The notes under the pieces are model-generated. The model ran no database searches, was not told the origin of the DNA, and was given only the letters and a program-made list of their open reading frames with translations. Shown here piece after piece: positions 6,126 to 34,453 of a stretch of DNA of 41,585 bases (within the stretch, counting starts at the first letter, position 1; every line of letters begins with the position of its first letter). The stretch lies in contig SKWQ01000202.1 of assembly GCA_007128855.1 (NCBI GenBank), positions 1-41,585 of the forward strand, in the 5' to 3' direction. Made by a program: the position numbers and the translations under genes. Source of the DNA: Balneolales bacterium (lineage in GTDB: Bacteria; Bacteroidota; Rhodothermia; Balneolales; Natronogracilivirgulaceae).

Positions 6126-7865
6126 ATGAAGGCATTAGCGTTTCCATTCCTGATATTATCCTTTCAGGCAGCCATTCTGGTAACCGGTTGCACTGCAAGG
6201 GCAGATATTCCGGTGACCGTACCACTGAAAGAGTACGAAAACAGCATTCTGGACTCCGGTGGAAAGCTGATCGAAGAGCAGGCGGCGCTGGATGTGCATT
6301 ATTACGACCTGGATCTGACCGTGGATCCGGAAGACAGTTCCCTTTCTGGAATTGTCCACACCCACGCACTGATCGTCGGTAGAACCAATGTGTTTGTGGC
6401 ACATCTGGATACTGTTTTTACCGTTTCCCGGGTTATCCAAAATGGAACCGGCGGAGGGGCTGGTGACAAGAATGAAGCTGTCCTGGATTTTTATCACGAA
6501 GACGGACTGATAGTCGCGGATCTTGGCCGGACCTTTCATCCGGGCGATTACCTGAAAGTATCCGTTACCTACTCAGGAAGGCCGAGGATGGCACCGAACC
6601 CACCATGGGAAGGGGGATTCACCTGGGCCCGGACAGAAAGCGGGTTGCCTTGGATTGGCGTCTCATGCCAGGTAAACGGGGCGGACATCTGGTGGCCCGT
6701 AAAGGACCATCCTTCAGACCGGGCTGATTCCGTCTCCATTCGCATTACGGTCCCGGAAGAGGTGACCGCAGTTTCAAACGGTGTGTTGCGAAGTGTTGCT
6801 GCAGAACGCCAGCCCGGTACGCGTACGTTTCACTGGGTCACTAACGCACCCATCAGCAACTATGCGGTCAGCATCAACATCGCACCCTATGAAGAAATTG
6901 TGCGAGAATACGAGAGCGTGTCCGGTGACGTTTTCCCGATCATTTTCTGGGCCCTCCCGGAAAACAGGGGCAAAGCGGAAATCCTGATGGATCAGGTTGT
7001 GGACCATATGCGCTTCTTTGAGGAGCTCCTTGGGCCCTATCCATACAGGCACGAAAAATACGGTGTTGCGGAGGCCCCGTTTTTTGGGATGGAACACCAG
7101 ACGATCATCGCCTACGGAGCCGGGTATGTGGACGACACGGTCTTTGATACTGGTTCGGGCTTCGACGACCTGCACCATCATGAACTGTCCCATGAGTGGT
7201 GGGGGAACTTTGTGACGGCTGCTGACTGGAAGGATTTCTGGATCCACGAAGGGTTTGGCACCTATATGCAGCCGTTGTATGCGGAATACCTGCATGGAAA
7301 GGAACAGTATCGCTATTTCATGAAGCGCATCCACGAGCGGATCATGAACAATATGCCTATCGCGCCTGAAGAGTCGCGCTCCACCAGGGAGATGTTCGAG
7401 GGGCGGGATATCTACATGAAAGGCGCCTGGGTGCTGCACACCCTGCGAAAAATGATCGGGGATGACCATTTTTTTTCAACGCTCAGGCAGATGACATATC
7501 CGGGAGGGTATCAGACCGCTTCGAGCGAAACGGCTGTCACAGTTGTCCCTGCGCGTTTAACGGACACCGATGAGTACATTGCCATTGCAGAACGGATATC
7601 AGGAAAGGAACTGGACTGGTTTTTTGATGCCTATCTTCGTTACAGTGAGTTGCCCGTACTGCACCAGGTGATGCGGGAAGGAGGTGTGGTGCTTTCATGG
7701 ACCGTTCCGTCCGGCAGGGAGTTCCCCATGCCTGTTGAAATATGGGACGGAAATGAGCGCAGGACCGTGGTCCCGGATGGATCAACTATCATCCCCGTTT
7801 CCGATCCAGAAAAGCTCAGGATCGATCCGGACAACAAGGTTCTCAGGGCAGGCATGTTCCATTGA
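6126..7865 (+). CDS. M1-family zinc metallopeptidase, predicted lipoprotein
   Basis: Predicted membrane-anchored aminopeptidase of 579 residues. The N-terminus is a lipoprotein signal with lipobox LVTGC and the lipidated Cys at residue 22, so the protein should work outside the cytoplasmic membrane. A beta-rich M1 N-domain is followed by the thermolysin-like catalytic domain. The zinc motif HELSH is at residues 352-356, and the third ligand Glu375 lies in WIHEGFG, where most M1 enzymes have NEGF. The exopeptidase motif reads GMEHQ (321-325) instead of GxMEN, a form I associate with Bacteroidota-type M1 proteins. The transition-state Tyr is likely in IYMKGAWVLHTLR. The C-terminal ARM-like domain is short. 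It starts three bases after folA; the reason for that linkage is unclear. Confidence 0.9.
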   Translation: MKALAFPFLILSFQAAILVTGCTARADIPVTVPLKEYENSILDSGGKLIEEQAALDVHYYDLDLTVDPEDSSLSGIVHTHALIVGRTNVFVAHLDTVFTVSRVIQNGTGGGAGDKNEAVLDFYHEDGLIVADLGRTFHPGDYLKVSVTYSGRPRMAPNPPWEGGFTWARTESGLPWIGVSCQVNGADIWWPVKDHPSDRADSVSIRITVPEEVTAVSNGVLRSVAAERQPGTRTFHWVTNAPISNYAVSINIAPYEEIVREYESVSGDVFPIIFWALPENRGKAEILMDQVVDHMRFFEELLGPYPYRHEKYGVAEAPFFGMEHQTIIAYGAGYVDDTVFDTGSGFDDLHHHELSHEWWGNFVTAADWKDFWIHEGFGTYMQPLYAEYLHGKEQYRYFMKRIHERIMNNMPIAPEESRSTREMFEGRDIYMKGAWVLHTLRKMIGDDHFFSTLRQMTYPGGYQTASSETAVTVVPARLTDTDEYIAIAERISGKELDWFFDAYLRYSELPVLHQVMREGGVVLSWTVPSGREFPMPVEIWDGNERRTVVPDGSTIIPVSDPEKLRIDPDNKVLRAGMFH

Positions 7866-22150: not shown

Positions 22151-22846
22151 ATGAAAATACTTGTTATTGAAGACGACAGGATAGTTCGCACCCTGGTTAA
22201 GCACGTTTTGGAGAATGAGGGGCACGAAGTGACCGTCGCAGACAGAGCTGATACCGGAGAGAAAATGGCCTTGGAAGATGATTTTGAAATCATCATCCTG
22301 GATCTCGGTCTTCCTGACAAAAGTGGGCTAGAGGTATGTAAAACACTGCGCGACAATAATATAAAAACCCCAATCCTCATTCTGTCTGCCTATCAGAATA
22401 CGGATACGAAAATTGCCGGTCTGAATACCGGGGCCGACGACTACCTTACAAAACCTTTTGACAACAAGGAATTGCTGGCACGTATCAACGCCATCATCCG
22501 GCGTGTGAAGAAAGGGGATGAGACGAACAATACCTATGAGTGCGGGGAACTCAAAATAGATCTGGTCAACCGGGAATTTTTCGTTAGGGACACCAAGGTC
22601 ATGCTGACCAACAATGAGTTCAACCTCATGGCCTACTTCATGAAGAATCCTGACCGGATCCTGTACAAGGACGAGCTGACAAACAATGTCTGGGATATCA
22701 ATTTTGACACCAACACCAATTTCCTGAATGTCTATATCAGTTATATCAGGAAAAAGATTGAAGAACTCACACCCGTAAACTACATCCAGACGGTTCGCAA
22801 GAAAGGATTCAAGCTCAACAGCAATCCGGTGCGTGAGTACGATTAG
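22151..22846 (+). CDS. OmpR/PhoB-family response regulator (orphan)
   Basis: Two-component DNA-binding regulator of 231 residues. The receiver domain (1-118) has the acidic pocket Glu7-Asp8-Asp9, the phospho-acceptor Asp51 (IILDLGLPDKSG), the switch Ser79 and the conserved Lys101 (LTKPFD). A winged-helix OmpR-type DNA-binding domain covers about 130-228, with the recognition helix in NFLNVYISYIRKKIE and the wing IQTVRKKGFKL. No histidine kinase gene is next to it, so its partner is elsewhere or it acts alone. It is followed after 13 bases by trmH, which is probably co-transcribed. The target genes are unknown. Confidence 0.92.
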   Translation: MKILVIEDDRIVRTLVKHVLENEGHEVTVADRADTGEKMALEDDFEIIILDLGLPDKSGLEVCKTLRDNNIKTPILILSAYQNTDTKIAGLNTGADDYLTKPFDNKELLARINAIIRRVKKGDETNNTYECGELKIDLVNREFFVRDTKVMLTNNEFNLMAYFMKNPDRILYKDELTNNVWDINFDTNTNFLNVYISYIRKKIEELTPVNYIQTVRKKGFKLNSNPVREYD

Positions 22847-22859
22847 TTTTACAGCCACA

Positions 22860-23579
22860 ATGGCAAACAACCCGGAAATCAGAATCAGAAAGCAGCAAAC
22901 TTCTTTTTTTGCCCAGTACGTGAGTGACCACAGGAAAAAGCTGTTTCAGGATATCCTCAAAAACCGCACACGCTTTGTCACTGTGGTCCTGGAGGACATC
23001 TACCAGCCGCAAAATGCGTCAGCCGTGCTCCGCAGTTGTGATGCCTTTGGTATCCAGGACGTCCACGTAATAGAAAACCGGAACGTGTTTGATGTGGACA
23101 AAGGGGTCACCATCGGATCGGACAAGTGGCTCAGTATTCACCGTTACCGCCAAAAGGGGAAGAACAACACATCAGCAGCTTATCAGGAGTTGCGTAAAAA
23201 GGGGTATCGTATCATAGCAACAACCCCCCATGAAAAACAGGTTGCGCTCCCGGAGTATGTACCGGAAGGTCCCATAGCCCTGGTCTTCGGCACTGAAAAA
23301 CTGGGACTGACACCCTATGCGATCAAAGAGGCAGACGAATGGCTCCACATCCCCATGCATGGATTCAGTGAGAGTTTCAATATATCCGTAAGCGTGGCCT
23401 TGTGCCTGTATCACCTGCGCATGCATCTGGAGGAGCAAAGGTGCGACTGGTCCCTGTCCACCGGAGAGAGAGACGAGCTGTACCTGCAGTGGCTCCGAAA
23501 ATCAGTTCACCGACTGCCGGCGCTGGACCGAAAATTCAAAGAGCTTCTGGAGAATTCTTCCCTGCCAGCTCCAGACTGA
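22860..23579 (+). CDS. trmH: tRNA (guanosine-2'-O-)-methyltransferase, SpoU/TrmH family
   Basis: SAM-dependent enzyme of the SPOUT (trefoil-knot) class, likely methylating the 2'-OH of G18 in tRNA. It has 239 residues from the ATG at 22860. The three SpoU motifs are present: motif 1 QNASAVLRSCDAFG with the catalytic Arg58, motif 2 FGTEKLGLT (143-151), and motif 3 IPMHGFSESFNISVSVAL (164-181). A helical C-terminal extension beyond the knot is typical of TrmH rather than of the rRNA enzyme RlmB, which has an extra N-terminal domain. A GTG at 22833 would start inside the response-regulator gene and is less likely. Its last 44 bases overlap the 3' end of tex on the opposite strand. Confidence 0.88.
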   Translation: MANNPEIRIRKQQTSFFAQYVSDHRKKLFQDILKNRTRFVTVVLEDIYQPQNASAVLRSCDAFGIQDVHVIENRNVFDVDKGVTIGSDKWLSIHRYRQKGKNNTSAAYQELRKKGYRIIATTPHEKQVALPEYVPEGPIALVFGTEKLGLTPYAIKEADEWLHIPMHGFSESFNISVSVALCLYHLRMHLEEQRCDWSLSTGERDELYLQWLRKSVHRLPALDRKFKELLENSSLPAPD

Positions 23580-25840: not shown

Positions 25841-26620
25841 ATGGAACAGAAAATTAAAGAGGAACTCCTGCAGTTTGCAATTTACCTGGCCAGGACGGCC
25901 GGCAAGGACACACTGGCGCATTTCCGGAAAAAAATTGACATCGAACGCAAAGGCGATGATTCACCCGTTACCGTTGCCGACCGTGAAGCGGAAAAATGGA
26001 TGCGGGGGCGAATTGCGGAACGTTTTCCGGATCATGGAATCGTAGGAGAGGAGTACGGCACGGAGAGAGAGTCTTCATCCGTTCGCTGGATTCTGGATCC
26101 GATTGACGGGACACTTTCGTTTATCCATGGAATTCCTCTCTATACGACACTGATCGGTGTGACCATTGATAATGAACCTGAAATCGGCGTGATCTATGCT
26201 CCTGCCACGGATGAGCTTTGCGAGGCGGGAATCGGCCTGGGTGCCAGGTACAATGGCAAGGACTGCCGCGTTTCCGACACATCGGTAATGCGCAAGGCAA
26301 CCCTTCTGAGCACGGACATGACCACCATCATCAGTGAGGGGTTGGTAGATCCGTTTCGCATTCTGCTTGACGAATGCCGTATGCACCGCACCTGGGGCGA
26401 TGCTTATGGACACATGATGGTTGCCAGCGGACGAGCCGATATCATGTTCGATCCTGTGCTGAACATCTGGGACGCCGCTCCATTGCTGCCCATTCTACAG
26501 GAATCCGGCGGGGTGTTTCTCGACTTTTCGGGGCATGCGGCCATAGACAGTGGCCATGGCTTTTCATCAAATGAGAAGCTGGCATCCATTGTGCTCTCCG
26601 TCATGGAATCCACACGCTGA
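25841..26620 (+). CDS. hisN: Inositol-monophosphatase-family phosphatase, probably histidinol-phosphatase
   Basis: Mg-dependent sugar/alcohol phosphatase of 259 residues. The metal sites are complete: Glu70/Glu71 in IVGEEYG, Asp86-Pro-Ile-Asp89-Gly-Thr (DPIDGT), and Asp211 in NIWDAAPLLPI. The RTWGDAYGHMMVASGRAD stretch (183-200) and SFIHGIPLYTTLIG after DPIDGT look more like HisN histidinol-phosphatases than like SuhB inositol phosphatases, so histidine synthesis is the better guess. No other his genes lie nearby to confirm this. It is divergent from tex with about 106 bases between, and is followed by the M1-like pseudopeptidase gene after 41 bases. Confidence 0.75.
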   Translation: MEQKIKEELLQFAIYLARTAGKDTLAHFRKKIDIERKGDDSPVTVADREAEKWMRGRIAERFPDHGIVGEEYGTERESSSVRWILDPIDGTLSFIHGIPLYTTLIGVTIDNEPEIGVIYAPATDELCEAGIGLGARYNGKDCRVSDTSVMRKATLLSTDMTTIISEGLVDPFRILLDECRMHRTWGDAYGHMMVASGRADIMFDPVLNIWDAAPLLPILQESGGVFLDFSGHAAIDSGHGFSSNEKLASIVLSVMESTR

Positions 26621-26661
26621 TCTGCTACCTGGAAATCCTTCATATCATGGAAAGAGTTACC

Positions 26662-28995
26662 ATGTCAACGAAATCATTTTTACTGCCAGTGCTCATCACC
26701 GTGCTGTTTACTGCAGCGGCACACGAAGTACGCGCATCAGGTGAAAATCCCGGTGCACTGCACGATTATCCAACCAGACCAGATTCCCAGGTTCGTTATA
26801 CCGGTCTGGAATTGCACCTGGAAGCAGGTTTTGATGAAGGGACGGTCCGGGGCACGGCAACCTATCGCTTCCACCCAAAACATGCCTATCTGGAAGAGCT
26901 TGCATTGTCGGCACCCGGTATGCAGATCCGGGAACTGACCATCAACGGGGAACAGGTTGCCTACCAGAAACGGGGTGACACTCTCAGCATCCCGTTTCGG
27001 GAGAATCCAGACACGGACAGGGAGCACGTGCTTTCTGTGAGTTATGTCACGAGTCCGGTGTTCGGCGTCCATTTCAGGCATAACGGGACCATAGTATCAT
27101 CATCACTGCCGGGCAGCACCATGCATTGGCTCCCCGGTCCGGCACATCCCGGTCCGGCCATGCCAATCGTGACAAGACTGGAAGTACCCGGCGATCTGAC
27201 GGGAGTTGCCAGCGGAGCACTGGAAAGGCAGACCTCCACCGATAAAGGGCGCCTCTATGTATTTCGCACCGGGGTGGAAGTGCCGATTACCGATTTGTTT
27301 TTTGCGGTTGGGAATTTCGAAGTGGATGATGCTTTTTCCGGAACAAAAAACCTGAGGGTCTACTGGGAACAGGGCGTGACGGATCCGGATCAGGCTCAGG
27401 ACTACATCACATTCTTGACCCGGCGCGTGCGTGATTTCGAACGACTGTTGCAAAGTGAAATGCCCGTTCAGGCCTTTCATGCCATCATTTTGTCGGACAA
27501 CATGTGGGAAACCCGTCCCTATTATGCGGGGGCAGCCGTGGTTCAGGGCAGACCCGATCAGATTAAAACAATGATGTCCCGGTCCATAGCCGCCCAATGG
27601 CTGGGAATCGCATTGAGGCCCGAAAAGTGGGACGAATCAGGTCACATTACATTGCTCCAGGCACTGGCGGCTGAAAGGCTGGGTGAACCGGATTGGGAAT
27701 ACGCTACTGATCCGATGGGGGATGCTTTTGTCGTACCTGAAACGGCGTATCGCCGAAAGGGCATGGAAGCCTGGCAGGGGTCGCGGGATTTCCTGCGAAA
27801 AAAGTCCATGCCGATCCTGAAAGAAGCCATGGATTCCGCCCTTATGGGTCTGGCTGCACGAAGGGGCGTACTCACATCCTATGAATTTTCCGCACTCATC
27901 TACGAAAAAACCGGCCTCTGGATGGAAATACCGCAGGCTACGCAACCGGAACCCAAAACAAAACTCCGTTACCTGGTAAACGCTGATGAAATCCGGGGAT
28001 CGGACCGGTTTATGCTAACGGTGGAGCCGCTGGAAGACATAACCGACAAAGAGCTCGGCATCAGGGTTTACTGGATCCGGGACGGGGAAATCCGAAACAC
28101 CCAGCTGACTTTTTCAGGTAGTGGGGACCAGCTGGAAATCAGTCCGGGTGGTTCCATCAGCAATATCTGGGTCGAATCTGACGATGCCAAGAGCCATGGG
28201 TTCGAGATCCGTAAACCATTTTCACACTGGCTGTACCAGCTCCGAAGGGATGAGCGACCGGAAATGAGAAAAGAGGCTGCCCTGGCACTAAAGGGCTATT
28301 CCAGGGATCCCGATCTACAGCTCGCCGTTCAGGATCTTCTGAACAGGGAGCAGGATCCGGAGGCATTGGCCGCCATGCACCGGCTCATGGCGGAACTCAC
28401 GGCCGGTGCCAGCGGTACCGAGCGCCGATTCCTCGACGGCATCACTTCCCGGCATGAGCAGGTCCGTTTTGAGTCGATGAAAGCCTTGCAAAACTACAGA
28501 AATAACACACAGGTAGAAAACCAGGTCTTCTCCATAATACAGTCATCGGATGATATCTCACTGGTCAACGAGGCCATCCGCACTTACCGAAAACTAGTAT
28601 CGGAAGAACAATTCCGTGATTTTGCGATTCAATTCCTCCGGGAAGACAGGCAGGAGCAGATGTTCACTGAAACTCTGATCTCGGAACTCTTTGAAGTAAC
28701 AACCAATGATACTGTCCTGGAAACAGTTGCGGAATATCTAAACCCGGGTTACAATTTTCAGCTTCGCTGGTTGGCTTATCGACTGCTCAGGCAGCATGCT
28801 GCTGGTACAGGATGGCAGGATGGCTTTGTTCGGGAATATTATGACGATCCGGATCCGAGGATACGGTTCATCGCACTATTTTCCATACCGGCAATGAATT
28901 TTGAGGAGCGGGGACCTTTTTTGGAGTCACGTATGTTGGTTGAGTACGATATTCGTATATTGCTACAGGCGAGCGTTCTCGCTGACGCAGAATAA
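26662..28995 (+). CDS. Secreted M1-peptidase-like protein without a zinc site, HEAT-like C-terminus
   Basis: A 777-residue exported protein. A signal peptide ends near VRA-SG. The N-terminal 200 residues follow the M1 aminopeptidase beta domain (YTGLELHLEAGFDEGTVRG, then LPGPAHPGPAMPIVTRLEVP). In the region that should hold the zinc motif, the sequence reads RSIAAQWLG at 307-315, aligned to HExxHQWFG. Both His and the Glu are lost, as is the downstream NEGF glutamate, while the flanking QW-G survives. About 525-775 is a string of short helical pairs resembling HEAT repeats (DPEALAAMHRLMAEL, DPRIRFIALFSIP). It is probably a binding or scaffold protein. The ATG at 26662 is chosen because GGAAAG lies about eight bases upstream; an ATG at 26647 adds five residues. 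Confidence 0.75.
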   Translation: MSTKSFLLPVLITVLFTAAAHEVRASGENPGALHDYPTRPDSQVRYTGLELHLEAGFDEGTVRGTATYRFHPKHAYLEELALSAPGMQIRELTINGEQVAYQKRGDTLSIPFRENPDTDREHVLSVSYVTSPVFGVHFRHNGTIVSSSLPGSTMHWLPGPAHPGPAMPIVTRLEVPGDLTGVASGALERQTSTDKGRLYVFRTGVEVPITDLFFAVGNFEVDDAFSGTKNLRVYWEQGVTDPDQAQDYITFLTRRVRDFERLLQSEMPVQAFHAIILSDNMWETRPYYAGAAVVQGRPDQIKTMMSRSIAAQWLGIALRPEKWDESGHITLLQALAAERLGEPDWEYATDPMGDAFVVPETAYRRKGMEAWQGSRDFLRKKSMPILKEAMDSALMGLAARRGVLTSYEFSALIYEKTGLWMEIPQATQPEPKTKLRYLVNADEIRGSDRFMLTVEPLEDITDKELGIRVYWIRDGEIRNTQLTFSGSGDQLEISPGGSISNIWVESDDAKSHGFEIRKPFSHWLYQLRRDERPEMRKEAALALKGYSRDPDLQLAVQDLLNREQDPEALAAMHRLMAELTAGASGTERRFLDGITSRHEQVRFESMKALQNYRNNTQVENQVFSIIQSSDDISLVNEAIRTYRKLVSEEQFRDFAIQFLREDRQEQMFTETLISELFEVTTNDTVLETVAEYLNPGYNFQLRWLAYRLLRQHAAGTGWQDGFVREYYDDPDPRIRFIALFSIPAMNFEERGPFLESRMLVEYDIRILLQASVLADAE

Positions 28996-29016: not shown

Positions 29017-29280
29017 ATGAATTACATCATCAAACTACCGCCAAAATCTAAGCGTGATGACATCGTCGATGCCTGGGTAAGTGATGTTCTGAACGACCAT
29101 GACTACAGCAGGTTAAGAGCGACGCTCAACCAGCTTATCGAGAGCGGATTCAACAGGGATGGTGTAATGTTCATGTTCCTTCACCGGACCACACACGAGA
29201 TTGCATGCAAAAGAATCATCCAGCAGTCACGCTACGAATTGGCCGAAATAGCCTTCAGCAATCCGATCAGTCTCAATTAG
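29017..29280 (+). CDS. Small hypothetical protein
   Basis: An 87-residue soluble protein of unknown role. An AGGAG ribosome binding site lies about ten bases before the ATG, the best in this part of the window. The composition is mixed-charge and mostly helical, with no cysteine pair, signal peptide or membrane segment. A helix around RLRATLNQLIESGFNRDG and HEIACKRIIQQSRYEL is the most structured-looking part. It follows the M1-like gene after 21 bases and probably shares its transcript. I recognise no family. Confidence 0.7.
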   Translation: MNYIIKLPPKSKRDDIVDAWVSDVLNDHDYSRLRATLNQLIESGFNRDGVMFMFLHRTTHEIACKRIIQQSRYELAEIAFSNPISLN

Positions 29281-29328: not shown

Positions 29329-30612
29329 TCATTTCTCCCGTACCCATCTCCACAATTCCCTGAAACTGGCCTTTTTGCCATACATCAGTATTCCCGTGCG
29401 ATAAATCCTGGAGCTCATCCAGATCAGTACGACAAAGGTCATGATCATCAGTACAATGGTCAGGCCGAATTGCCACAAGGGGACCTGAAGCACAGCCATG
29501 CGCACCGGCATGAGTATCGGGGCAAAGAAAGGCACCATCGATAAAGTGACAGCCAGAGTTGAAGCCGGGTCATCTGACACAGGGAAGAGGAACATCAGCG
29601 GGATGATGATCAGCATGATGATGGGTAGCTGGAGCTGCTGGCTGTCCGATTCCTGATCTACTGCGGATCCTACAGCGGCAAAAAGCGAGCTGTAAATCAA
29701 AAAGCCCAGCAGGAAAAACAGTACAAAGCCGATCCATATCATGGGTCCGATGGGAGGGATGCTGAATGCAGCCACATCGGAAGCAGCCTCAGCCGCCTGG
29801 GCCGTTTCCGGACCGGAACCCATGAACAGGGAGATCACGGGACCGGCTGCAACCATCAGAAGGGCACCGGCTACAGCCCAGATGGCGAATTGCGTTAGCC
29901 CCAACAACGCTACTCCAATAACCTTGCCCATGAGCAATTCAAACGGCCGGACCGATGAGGCGATGACTTCCACGATGCGGCTTGTCTTTTCTTCCATGAC
30001 ACTGCGCATTATGACTGCCCCATAGCCAAACATGGCACCGTAGATAATGAAACCCATGATAAATCCAAGAAACATGTAAAATCCACTGTCGGCGGCTTCT
30101 TCACCTTCGGCGGTTATGGTAAGGTTTTCTGTCTGCACACGATCGGCTAGGATCTGCTTTACTTCTTCTGATGCCTCAATCCGATCCAGCCGGATATTCC
30201 TGACAATTTGCTGCAGATCGGACCGGATGCGCGAGGTGACCGACATCCCGGCCGTCCCGCCATGATAGAAAACAGCCTTCCCCTGACCATCCAGTACTTC
30301 ATGCGGAACTACCAGATAGCCCTCAATCTCGCCCCGCATAAGGGATTCCCGAAGCTCATCAGGTGTGTTTTCGGCCATGCGGTAGTAGGCCGAGTCACTT
30401 GCTACCATTTCCGTTCCGATTATACCGGTTTCATCATAGACCAGGAACTGTCGTACCCGATCACCGGACATGGTCTGGATAACGGCTGGCAGGACCAGAA
30501 GCAGTATCATGACAACCGGGGCCAGTATGGTCGATACGATGAATATCTTGCTCTTGAGCCGCGTCATATACTCGCGTTGAATGATCAGCAGCAACTTTTC
30601 TTTTTGTATCAT
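29329..30612 (-). CDS. ABC-2 type exporter permease (NatB-like)
   Basis: Membrane subunit of an ABC exporter, 427 residues. The first membrane segment at about 22-45 is followed by a large extracytoplasmic domain (about 50-170), then five or six clustered membrane segments to about residue 405. MRSVMEEKTSRIVEVIASSV just after a membrane segment is the hallmark of the NatB/YhaP ABC-2 permease family; NatAB of B. subtilis exports sodium. It overlaps the ATPase gene by four bases (ATGA) and must be co-translated with it. The real substrate (Na+, drugs or other) cannot be read from sequence. Confidence 0.88.
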   Translation of the reverse strand: MIQKEKLLLIIQREYMTRLKSKIFIVSTILAPVVMILLLVLPAVIQTMSGDRVRQFLVYDETGIIGTEMVASDSAYYRMAENTPDELRESLMRGEIEGYLVVPHEVLDGQGKAVFYHGGTAGMSVTSRIRSDLQQIVRNIRLDRIEASEEVKQILADRVQTENLTITAEGEEAADSGFYMFLGFIMGFIIYGAMFGYGAVIMRSVMEEKTSRIVEVIASSVRPFELLMGKVIGVALLGLTQFAIWAVAGALLMVAAGPVISLFMGSGPETAQAAEAASDVAAFSIPPIGPMIWIGFVLFFLLGFLIYSSLFAAVGSAVDQESDSQQLQLPIIMLIIIPLMFLFPVSDDPASTLAVTLSMVPFFAPILMPVRMAVLQVPLWQFGLTIVLMIMTFVVLIWMSSRIYRTGILMYGKKASFRELWRWVREK

Positions 30613-31520
30613 CCCTGTACCTCCCCGGAGACCGAATCGATGAATATTTCCTGGATGCTTGGCTGGACAAGCTCGAATCCCTGGACACGGACGTGTTGCT
30701 GCGCTTGACTCAGGATGGCCTGGTCGTCTGCGCCATCCAGCAGCCGGATCTCTGCAAAGTTCGTGGACCGGTTGTTGATCCTGACGTTTTGCAACTCAGA
30801 CAGGAAACGACTATCGCCGGTGAAACGCAGCCGGATGCTGTTGTGCCCGTAGGAGGAGCGGATCTGGTCAAGATTCCCGTTCAGGATCAGTTTCCCATTG
30901 TGAAACAGGGCGATGTCATCACAGAGTTGTTCCACCTGTTCCATTCTGTGCGTGGCAAAAAAAATGGTCTTTCCCGCATCCCGAAGTTCCAGTATTACCT
31001 CTTTCAGCATTTCACTGTTAATGGGGTCAAGCCCGCTGAACGGTTCGTCAAAAATCAGGCAATCGGGATCGTGAGCAATCGTTGCCACAAACTGGATTTT
31101 TTGCTGCATCCCCTTGGAAAGCTCCCCAACCTCTTTTCCGATCCAGCCGTAGGCATCAAAACGTTCCAGCCAGAGACGGATCCGCTGTCGGGCATCCTGG
31201 CGTGTAAGACCGCGCAGACGGCAAAGATAGATCAGTTGTTCTCCAACTTTCATTTTCTTGTACAGGCCACGTTCTTCCGGCAGATATCCCAGGCGGGCCT
31301 GGGTTTCGGATCCCACCGGCGTTCCAAAGAGCCTGATACTGCCGGAATCCGGTTTCAGTATGTAGGTGAGCATTCGTATACTGGTGGTCTTGCCGGCTCC
31401 GTTAGGTCCGAGCAATCCAAAAATCCGCCCCTGGTTTACATCAAAACTGACATTGTCCACTGCACGGAAATCACCGAACTGCTTGGTCACACCCTCAAAT
31501 TCAACTATGGAATCACTCAT
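30609..31520 (-). CDS. ABC transporter ATP-binding protein (NatA-like)
   Basis: Cytoplasmic ATPase subunit of the exporter, 303 residues. Walker A is GPNGAGKTT (38-46), the signature is LSKGMQQKIQF, Walker B is CLIFDEPFSGLDP, and the switch His is in FFATHRMEQ. KGMQQK in place of the usual SGGQ is typical of the NatA/DrrA-type ATPases that pair with ABC-2 permeases. The last 80 residues form the small DrrA-like C-terminal domain. It is the first gene of the pair and is divergent from glgA across 216 bases. Confidence 0.93.
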   Translation of the reverse strand: MSDSIVEFEGVTKQFGDFRAVDNVSFDVNQGRIFGLLGPNGAGKTTSIRMLTYILKPDSGSIRLFGTPVGSETQARLGYLPEERGLYKKMKVGEQLIYLCRLRGLTRQDARQRIRLWLERFDAYGWIGKEVGELSKGMQQKIQFVATIAHDPDCLIFDEPFSGLDPINSEMLKEVILELRDAGKTIFFATHRMEQVEQLCDDIALFHNGKLILNGNLDQIRSSYGHNSIRLRFTGDSRFLSELQNVRINNRSTNFAEIRLLDGADDQAILSQAQQHVRVQGFELVQPSIQEIFIDSVSGEVQG

Positions 31521-31609
31521 GAAAAATCACTGTTATTGTAGTATCTGTGATTATGGTCAATCGGAAAATAAAGTTTGTAAGATAGTCTTTGAATTTCTTA
31601 TATACCTGT

Positions 31610-31638
31610 AATTGAATGCATTTTTCGATATTTCAATT
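31610..31638. repeat. Inverted repeat in the natA-glgA divergent region
   Basis: Perfect seven-base inverted repeat AATTGAA (31610-31616) / TTCAATT (31632-31638) with a 15-base spacer, in the 216-base space between the ABC ATPase and glgA. It could be an operator half-site pair or chance in AT-rich DNA. Confidence 0.3.
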
Positions 31639-31656
31639 GGACAACATAAAGCCTGA

Positions 31657-31697
31657 CAATGGCAATGTCGCATTGGAGTTTCGTACTCAATGGCAAT
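31657..31697. repeat. Ten-base direct repeat upstream of glgA
   Basis: CAATGGCAAT occurs at 31657-31666 and again at 31688-31697. The start-to-start distance of 31 bases is close to three helical turns. The repeats lie 40-80 bases before the glgA start, where a regulator might bind. Confidence 0.35.
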
Positions 31698-31736
31698 AAA
31701 AACAGCTTCTACGAATATCATAGCAGATAGTTTCAC

Positions 31737-33179
31737 ATGCAGGTACTCCACATCAGTTTTGAATGTTATCCGGTAGCAAAAGCCGGAGGTTTGGCCGATG
31801 TCGTCGGCGCTCTCCCAAAGTATTTACAGGAATTTGACGTCGATTCATGGGTCGTGATGCCCCACTTCGACATCGAGTGGGTCCGAAACCATCAACTGGA
31901 TACCGTGCACAGCGGTGTTGCCCACATGGGGGATGAGCGTTTCGAATACCGGATTGTCCGGGAAGCAGGTGGTGTGCTCGGTTTCCCGTTGTATCTCGTT
32001 GATATCCCCGGCAGGCTCGACCGACCTGGCATCTACATCGACCCCCAGAGCGATTTCCCTTATTGGGATGAGTTCGAGCGTTTCGCATCATTTCAGATTG
32101 CCGTGCTGGACTGGCTCAAATCCTTCAGTAAAAAACCGGATATCATCCATTGCCACGACCATCACACGGCGCTCATCCCGTTTCTGATGACCAGTTCCCC
32201 GGTGTATCATGAATTCCGGTCCATTCCGTCGGTATTGACCATTCACAACGGACACTACCAGGGCTGGTACGATTCGGGCAAGCGCTATCTGCTCCCGAAA
32301 ATTGAACCGGAACGGGAGGGCTTTCTCTACTGGAATGGCCGGATGAACGCCCTGTCTGCCGGAATCCGAACCGCGTGGAACATCACTACCGTTTCGGAAT
32401 CCTATCTTCATGAATTGCAGCACTCGTGCAAAGGTCTTGAATCCCTGCTCTCCTACGAGCAAATGAAATCGCATGGCATCATAAACGGCATCGACACCGA
32501 TGTCTGGAACCCGGAGACGGATCCGCTGATCGTGGACAACTTTAGCCCTAAAACCTTTCCGGAAGGCAAGTCGAAGAATAAGGAGTGGATTTGCAGTGAA
32601 TTCGGATTTGATCCGGCACTGCCCCTGTTTTCCTTCATCGGCAGGCTTGTAGAAGAAAAGGGGGCCGATCTCCTTCCGGATTTGATCGTACGGTATCTGG
32701 AGACCGGACTCAAGGGCAGTTTCCTCTTGCTTGGCACCGGGGAGCCCTGGCTCCACACCAGGTTCAGGGATATGAAAAGCCACTATGTGAATTTCTTTGA
32801 TGCTTCACTTACCTACAACGAGGAGCTGGCTCACCGCATGTACGCCGGCAGCGACTTTCTGATCATGCCCTCGCGGGTGGAACCATGCGGGCTCAATCAG
32901 ATGTACGCCATGAGATATGGCACTCTTCCCATTGTCAGAAGCATCGGGGGGCTGCGGGATACGGTGCAGGATTTTTCCCAACCCGACGGATACGGAATCC
33001 TGTTCAACTATTTCAGCCAGGACGATGCCTACCATGCCCTCCAGCGTGCCGCTGCATTATATCATGACAGTCAATTGATGAATGAATTGCAGAAAAGGGC
33101 GATATCCAAAGATTTTTCCTGGCATAGCTCAGCAGAAAAGTATGTCAACATGTACAAATCATTAATCAAGGAGAAGTAA
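31737..33179 (+). CDS. glgA: Glycogen synthase (ADP-glucose)
   Basis: GT5-family glycosyltransferase that adds glucose from ADP-glucose to alpha-1,4-glucan. It has 480 residues, the normal length. The N-terminal AKAGGLADVVGALPKYL carries the KxGG substrate loop (Lys15-Gly17-Gly18). The C-terminal domain has FIGRLVEEKGADLL, then SRVEPCGLNQMYAMRYG with the E-x7-E type acidic pair, and GGLRDTV. It is followed after two bases by glgC, which makes its substrate, so the two are coupled. Confidence 0.95.
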   Translation: MQVLHISFECYPVAKAGGLADVVGALPKYLQEFDVDSWVVMPHFDIEWVRNHQLDTVHSGVAHMGDERFEYRIVREAGGVLGFPLYLVDIPGRLDRPGIYIDPQSDFPYWDEFERFASFQIAVLDWLKSFSKKPDIIHCHDHHTALIPFLMTSSPVYHEFRSIPSVLTIHNGHYQGWYDSGKRYLLPKIEPEREGFLYWNGRMNALSAGIRTAWNITTVSESYLHELQHSCKGLESLLSYEQMKSHGIINGIDTDVWNPETDPLIVDNFSPKTFPEGKSKNKEWICSEFGFDPALPLFSFIGRLVEEKGADLLPDLIVRYLETGLKGSFLLLGTGEPWLHTRFRDMKSHYVNFFDASLTYNEELAHRMYAGSDFLIMPSRVEPCGLNQMYAMRYGTLPIVRSIGGLRDTVQDFSQPDGYGILFNYFSQDDAYHALQRAAALYHDSQLMNELQKRAISKDFSWHSSAEKYVNMYKSLIKEK

Positions 33180-33181
33180 CC

Positions 33182-34453
33182 ATGATGGAATCAACCATAG
33201 CTGTTATCCTGGGTGGCGGAGCTGGAAGCCGTCTGTTTCCGCTTACTAAAAACAGATCGAAACCCGCCGTTCCGGTAGGTGGAAAGTATCGTCTTGTGGA
33301 CATTCCCATTTCCAATTGCCTCCACTCGGACATCCGCCAGATCTATGTTCTCACCCAATTCAACTCTGCCTCCCTGAATTCGCATGTAAAAAACACATTT
33401 CACTTCGATGCTTTCTCAAGAGGATTTGTTGATATCCTTGCGGCAGAACAGACTCCCAGTTCGCATCAGTGGTATCAGGGAACGGCGGACGCCGTGCGGC
33501 AAACCTTTCGCTACCTGCAAAACCACCGCGCCGACAAGGTCCTGATCCTGTCCGGAGACCAGCTCTACCAGATGGATTACCGGCATATGATGCAGGCTCA
33601 CGAAGAGAACAATGCGGAGCTTACCATCGGAACCATCCCCGTCAACTCTCATGATGCCACCGGGTTCGGTATCATGAAAACGGATGACAAGGGAATGATC
33701 GAAAGTTTCATTGAAAAACCCACACTTGAACAGCTTTCCGGTTGGGAGTCACAGGTACCGGATGAAATGAAAGCGCTGGGAAAAGTCTACCTCGCCTCCA
33801 TGGGCATCTATATCTTCAATAAGGATACGCTATGGAGTCTTATCAACGATAATCCGGAAGCTCTTGATTTCGGAAGAGAGATCATCCCCAAAGCGATTGA
33901 ATCACAAATGGGTGTGGCCAGTTACAAGTACACCGGTTACTGGACCGATATAGGAACCATACGGTCTTTCTATGACGCCAATCTTGAACTGGCAGATCCA
34001 ATGCCACAGTTTGATCTGTACGCTACTGGAAAAAAAATATTTACCAGGCCAAGGCTGCTCCCGCCGACGAAGATATTCGGGACCACTACGGATCGCTCCC
34101 TGATTGCTGAAGGATGTGTGATTGAGGCCGAATCCATTTTTCACTCGGTTATTGGAATCCGCTCCCGGATCGGTCCGAAGAGTGTGGTTAAGGAATCCAT
34201 CATGATGGGTAACGATTTCTACCCGTCCATTGAAGAACTCACTGAATCCAATCCGGACATGCCCGCGCGTGGCATAGGAGCTGGTTGCCATATCGAGCGC
34301 GCCATTATCGATAAAAACGCCCGAATCGGTAACGATGTCCGCATTGTTGGCGGCGATCACCTGGAAAATACCAGAAATGAAAACTACTCCATTGTAGATG
34401 GAATCATTGTGGTTGAAAAAAACGGAATCATCAAAGACGGAACGGTGATCTGA
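33182..34453 (+). CDS. glgC: Glucose-1-phosphate adenylyltransferase (ADP-glucose pyrophosphorylase)
   Basis: Makes ADP-glucose from glucose-1-phosphate and ATP, the committed step of glycogen synthesis. It has 423 residues. The nucleotide loop GGGAGSRLFPLTKNRSKPA, the VDIPISNCLHSDI segment, the sugar-phosphate FIEKP region and a C-terminal left-handed beta-helix (about 290-423) are all present. An AGGAG ribosome binding site sits at the end of glgA. Tandem ATGs at 33182 and 33185 leave the exact start open by one residue. Confidence 0.95.
   Translation: MMESTIAVILGGGAGSRLFPLTKNRSKPAVPVGGKYRLVDIPISNCLHSDIRQIYVLTQFNSASLNSHVKNTFHFDAFSRGFVDILAAEQTPSSHQWYQGTADAVRQTFRYLQNHRADKVLILSGDQLYQMDYRHMMQAHEENNAELTIGTIPVNSHDATGFGIMKTDDKGMIESFIEKPTLEQLSGWESQVPDEMKALGKVYLASMGIYIFNKDTLWSLINDNPEALDFGREIIPKAIESQMGVASYKYTGYWTDIGTIRSFYDANLELADPMPQFDLYATGKKIFTRPRLLPPTKIFGTTTDRSLIAEGCVIEAESIFHSVIGIRSRIGPKSVVKESIMMGNDFYPSIEELTESNPDMPARGIGAGCHIERAIIDKNARIGNDVRIVGGDHLENTRNENYSIVDGIIVVEKNGIIKDGTVI

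Follow-up and report, generated by a model that had tools for sequence, protein, structure and literature searches.

The Locus and Its Gene Neighborhood

The window, by which we mean the whole stretch of 41,585 nucleotides analyzed here, derives from a metagenome-assembled genome of a Balneolales bacterium that is approximately 89% complete. It carries a gene for a protein related to the M1 aminopeptidases, which we call the pseudopeptidase and which is listed with its features and closest neighbors in Table 1. The open reading frame (26647–28995, forward strand) had been positioned correctly in the first-pass annotation, which began at 26662, i.e., at the second ATG, from which a product of 777 amino acids would result.

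Table 1. Coordinates of the pseudopeptidase gene, its parts and its flanking genes in the window.
Feature	Coordinates	Strand	Basis
Inositol-monophosphatase/HisN-type phosphatase	25841..26620	+	PF00459, TIGR02067
M1-fold pseudopeptidase with HEAT-type domain IV	26647..28995	+	782 aa from first ATG
Predicted signal peptide, hydrophobic, ends near HEVRA	26662..26736	+	model helix 4–26
Domain I, M1 N-terminal beta domain, residues 43–237	26788..27372	+	PF17900, model strands, conservation
Domain II, former catalytic domain, residues 238–420	27373..27921	+	alignment, model
Former GxMEN region, D-N-M-W-E-T-R-P-Y-Y-A-G, residues 279–290	27496..27531	+	alignment
Erased HExxH, R-S-I-A-A-Q-W-L-G, residues 307–315	27580..27606	+	alignment
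Site of 4-residue deletion, L-N-E-G (third zinc ligand) removed	27628..27639	+	alignment
Domain III, beta-sandwich, residues 433–518	27958..28215	+	model
Domain IV, HEAT-type solenoid, residues 519–777	28216..28992	+	PF13646, model
Family signature DPDLQLAVQD, residues 549–558	28306..28335	+	two alignments
Family signature GASGTERRF, residues 582–590	28405..28431	+	two alignments
All-helical 87-aa protein of unknown family	29017..29280	+	starts 21 bases after pseudopeptidase stop

The phosphatase gene ends 26 bases ahead of the first ATG of the pseudopeptidase, and its best NCBIfam model is the histidinol-phosphatase HisN, slightly under the cut-off. Of 69 loci, 61 have it directly upstream in the same orientation and seven more within 4 kb upstream, while it was not found in the flank at one. 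The downstream gene encodes an 87-residue protein without a match in Pfam or NCBIfam, whose model is a small helical bundle with no significant match in the PDB. This protein is 72–91% identical within the host family, a conservation far above that of the pseudopeptidase, and its gene still follows directly downstream in members of two other families (f2 and f5), in which identity falls to 33–40%. Spacing, strand and retained linkage are consistent with the shared transcript that had been proposed for these two genes, and probably the phosphatase gene is co-transcribed as well. No export signal is obvious in the phosphatase or in the 87-residue protein, so neither is taken as a partner of the pseudopeptidase, and the 87-residue protein in particular is disfavored as its binding partner. 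Further downstream, at 29329–34453, genes for a NatAB-type ABC transporter (minus strand) and then glgA and glgC are located, and this neighborhood is conserved in most Balneolales loci; contig ends limit the counts, which are at least 51 of 73 loci for the transporter and at least 43 of 73 for glgA. The conserved neighbors, i.e., the phosphatase, the transporter, glgA and glgC, yield no clear functional lead.

Fold and Domain Architecture

Profile matches, alignments and a structural model together strongly support that the protein is a four-domain homologue of M1 peptidases that is itself no peptidase. The AlphaFold2 model, which was computed from an alignment of 62 sequences, has a mean pLDDT of 91.6 and a pTM of 0.83, and it displays the M1 fold with domain II present, as the check by structure prediction suggested earlier had required. 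Compared with the PDB by Foldseek, the model matches TAF2 best (E 2.5e-32), followed by active M1 aminopeptidases starting at 1.4e-29 (PepN); whole-chain TM-scores of these matches are only 0.4–0.5 with an rmsd above 10 Å, which we attribute to different angles between the predicted domains. Searching the PDB with the family profile resulted in matches to leukotriene A4 hydrolase (1.3e-18) and TAF2 (3.3e-18). The M1-type N-terminal domain read from the single sequence is borne out at the family level: Peptidase_M1_N (PF17900) scores 12.2 bits against the protein of the window alone, which is under the Pfam cut-off, and is matched by 32 of 41 family members, with a best value of 6.5e-15. Within this domain an HWLP..HP motif is conserved. 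For the catalytic-domain family Peptidase_M1 (PF01433), the protein of the window has no match at E ≤ 1, and this family is not among the 25 most frequent Pfam families listed for the members.

The HEAT-like character of the C-terminal 250 residues also holds. HEAT_2 (PF13646) is matched by the protein of the window with 29.6 bits, over the cut-off, and by 39 of 41 members, and the model shows 16 helices forming approximately eight HEAT-like pairs (residues 520–776). In the first of the two signatures in this domain (Table 1), D551, L554 and D558 are invariant in both family alignments. What does not stand is the notion that this tail is a special feature. A HEAT-repeat domain IV is standard in M1 family members such as LTA4H, PepN, ERAP and PSA (PMC10343166). 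Five Bacteroidia proteins of 806–833 amino acids (L150, L151, L152, L161, and L162) match nearly the full length of the family profile, e.g., L150 at positions 12–766 with 216.6 bits; they share the domain order and the HEAT-type tail and retain HExxHQWFG and NEGF, without the deletions in domain II of the pseudopeptidase. As such full-length active homologues exist, the tail is the ordinary domain IV of M1 enzymes.

Loss of the Zinc Site

Aligned with these five active Bacteroidia enzymes, the pseudopeptidase shows RSIAAQWLG in place of HExxHQWFG, on a domain II helix that spans residues 298–317 in the model. WGGMEN is replaced by WETRPY, with GGMEN opposite ETRPY, and domain II carries deletions: a 4-residue gap falls exactly at the LNEG of the active full-length homologues, removing the NEGF segment, and an 8-residue stretch ahead of the former HExxH is missing as well. 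A frameshift or a misalignment that hides an intact motif had been named as the possible pitfall; all forward frames of the gene are free of HExxH and HDxxH, and HExxH is likewise absent from all 123 family sequences, which combine 61 and 62 sequences from two overlapping samples of Balneolales genomes. The position of the first His is an Arg in 47 of 62 members, the catalytic Glu is replaced by Gly, Ala, or Ser in most of them, and so is the second His by Ala, Gly, or Ser, with a lone second His in one member. The surrounding positions are near-invariant: Q312 is kept in 60 of 62 members, W313 and G315 in all 62, W282 in 57 and E283 in 52. The original observation that RSIAA stands for HExxH, that the QW-G residues are kept and that the NEGF glutamate is absent is therefore upheld by alignment, profile, model and the survey across the order. 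There is strong support from these comparisons that the three zinc ligands have all been lost, together with the general base and the GxMEN motif. Judged by its sequence, the protein is not a catalytic M1 peptidase, as HExxH, the Glu of NEGF and GxMEN are all missing.

The window contains another M1 protein, a lipoprotein encoded at 6126–7865 with a lipobox (LVTGC) and a PF01433 match of 74.7 bits, and its zinc site is intact (HHELSHEWWGN...HEGF) as had been reported. As a direct comparator, for which it had been put forward, it is less suited, being a short M1 protein and a distant relative; the Bacteroidia enzymes of 800–840 amino acids (e.g., L150, L162) serve this purpose better.

Distribution and Selection

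Of 98 relatives, 94 carry the gene, almost all of them with one match, a single-copy count that is based on six-frame searches of draft genomes. An alignment query yielded 73 loci, and the relatives belong to the Balneolales, with Fodinibius, Gracilimonas, Rhodohalobacter, and Balneola among them. Genera without the gene have small genomes (g29, g33), and in a second survey it was also missing from g35 and from two incomplete genomes of g26. Scans of genome contigs and viral contigs with the single sequence revealed no relatives, and in a tblastn search of plasmids the sole matches were weak ones, to M1 enzymes of actinobacteria. Among pairs whose dS is under 1.5, dN/dS is approximately 0.10–0.24, with the M1 part and the HEAT part behaving alike. 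Presence and substitution pattern strongly support that the gene has been kept by purifying selection across the order.

Origin of the Inactive Lineages

Outside of the Balneolales, HExxH is also lost in homologues of families f9, f14, f17, and f20, which belong to the Rhodothermales, an order name that is inferred from the class. The inactive Rhodothermales proteins (L140, L141, L142, L143, L144, and L156) have the architecture of the pseudopeptidase and likewise lack HExxH; in contrast to it, they carry other substitutions (e.g., LLARQWFG, DDAFPAY) and no 4-residue deletion. In all five loci with enough flank, their genes converge on a SpoU methylase gene. The loci recorded for this convergence of an inactive M1-HEAT gene with a SpoU-type methylase gene, which holds outside Balneolales wherever the flank suffices, are L170, L171, L172, L174, L179, and L198. 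In the window's own family such a methylase gene is located three genes upstream (22833–23579), and at L178, an active Bacteroidia locus, one is approximately 2.5 kb off.

In trees, the Balneolales proteins form one clade (support 100) and most inactive Rhodothermales proteins another, and an AU test does not reject a topology in which the inactive proteins of both groups are held together (p 0.31). Separate losses are favored because L145, a family f15 fragment in which NEGF is kept, falls within the Rhodothermales clade (SH-aLRT 96) and is found near the same SpoU gene; this fragment is truncated by a contig end and does not include the HExxH position. Probably, Balneolales and Rhodothermales thus lost the zinc site independently. 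On the basis of quick trees with long branches, we favor two losses or more, and the paralogue L154 may represent a further one. L154 (G120:C9), a protein of approximately 895 amino acids from a different clade of paralogues, no longer carries HExxH (ELARSVAHQWFG, VPEG); in its close relatives the motif is intact.

Predicted Export and Possible Functions

A hydrophobic stretch is present at the N-terminus of 59 of 62 family members, which agrees with the earlier view of a secreted protein. From this we infer that the pseudopeptidase is exported and is probably periplasmic or surface-facing. M1 enzymes hold peptides in a groove that lies between domains II and IV. Since the chemistry is lost, the fold is kept and the gene is retained by selection, a role in binding is most likely, and a binding or chaperone-like function as initially suggested is plausible. 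In particular, we consider it probable that the protein is a secreted M1 pseudo-aminopeptidase that acts without catalysis as a binding scaffold. By analogy to TAF2 and other M1 pseudoenzymes, the V-shaped groove that the HEAT-type domain IV forms with the remodeled domain II would hold a protein or peptide partner. Contacts between proteins are often mediated by HEAT solenoids (PMC10343166). Conserved positions surround the former pocket and also occur in domains I and IV, and an extended binding surface fits with this distribution, although conservation of Asp and Arg in the HEAT part is to some extent typical of HEAT repeats in general and does not necessarily indicate a binding face.

Next to the scaffold, we place a protein whose rebuilt pocket would bind exported peptides or unfolded proteins without cleaving them, making it a periplasmic chaperone or receptor. 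The lining of the pocket was not randomized but swapped for a conserved motif, as seen for W282 and E283 opposite the WGGMEN of active enzymes, and the M1 homologue Tma108 binds nascent chains, with mutation of a substrate-binding residue abolishing this binding (PMC11266112). The Glu of GxMEN that binds the substrate N-terminus is gone, however, and domain II has deletions; we regard this reading as rather unlikely. Third in our ranking, and more doubtful still, is a regulatory subunit for one of the cell's active M1 paralogues, which it would control through heterodimerization or competition for substrate. Candidates for such a paralogue exist, as three M1 genes of the genome score over the Pfam cut-off, among them that of the 904-residue L001 with HEIIHQWFG, but the pseudopeptidase has very low sequence similarity to them and is not adjacent (the lipoprotein gene is 19 kb away), and we know of no M1 enzyme that requires such a subunit. 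It appears even less probable that the M1 fold has acquired a catalytic activity or a metal site of another, unrecognized kind: near-invariant polar residues remain (H155, H162, D279, E283, and Q312), but most such positions are the same or similar in active M1 proteins, and no novel metal-ligand cluster was recognized. A decaying pseudogene or an assembly artefact, for which the lost catalytic residues and the gene of one metagenome-assembled genome (L147; G039:C152), in which a frameshift or an assembly error leaves two open frames (328 and 476 amino acids), could be cited, is in practice refuted by open frames in nearly every species, the order-wide presence and the low dN/dS.

Relation to Known M1 Proteins and Significance

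The scaffold reading has its closest counterpart in TAF2, a TFIID subunit with M1-like domains D1–D4, which is the best fold match of the pseudopeptidase and among its best profile matches and which likewise uses the four-domain M1 fold as a scaffold. The aminopeptidase-like domain of Taf2, composed of four subdomains, contacts other subunits and DNA (PMC6220335). While TAF2 is a nuclear eukaryotic protein of approximately 1200 amino acids in a known complex, the pseudopeptidase is a bacterial protein with predicted export; it is hence no TAF2 itself, although its mode of action may be similar. The TPR_TAF2_C profile matches weakly in 4 of 41 members (best 0.0074). Most likely the two zinc sites were lost independently, and these comparisons point to no common descent beyond a shared M1 ancestry. 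LTA4H, PepN, ERAP, and PSA share the fold but are catalytic zinc enzymes. Tma108, a yeast homologue of M1 enzymes for which a binding role has been proposed (PMC11266112), is associated with nascent chains at the ribosome and, unlike the pseudopeptidase, retains all but one of its active-site residues.

Proteins of this kind, i.e., M1 pseudoenzymes such as TAF2, are thus already known, and what is new here is a bacterial one with predicted export. No description of the family was found in the open-access literature searched, which is weak evidence of novelty as subscription journals are mostly outside of it; the M1 pseudoenzymes described there are a few eukaryotic proteins (TAF2, Tma108). For genome annotation, the findings call for caution against labeling pseudopeptidase genes as metallopeptidases. 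The gene is carried by cultured Fodinibius, Gracilimonas, Rhodohalobacter, and Balneola and is thereby open to experiment. Tentatively, and with more doubt than conviction, we suggest that the Balneolales turned a secreted M1 aminopeptidase into a near-universal non-catalytic structural component, a periplasmic protein comparable in kind to TAF2, and that a sister lineage repeated this independently at another locus. If this is true, loss of the zinc site in long M1 enzymes would be recurrent and the scaffold role would be selected for. This ancient, near-universal bacterial family, together with its active full-length homologues and separately inactivated relatives, constitutes a natural series for studying the role of an aminopeptidase fold after the loss of catalysis.
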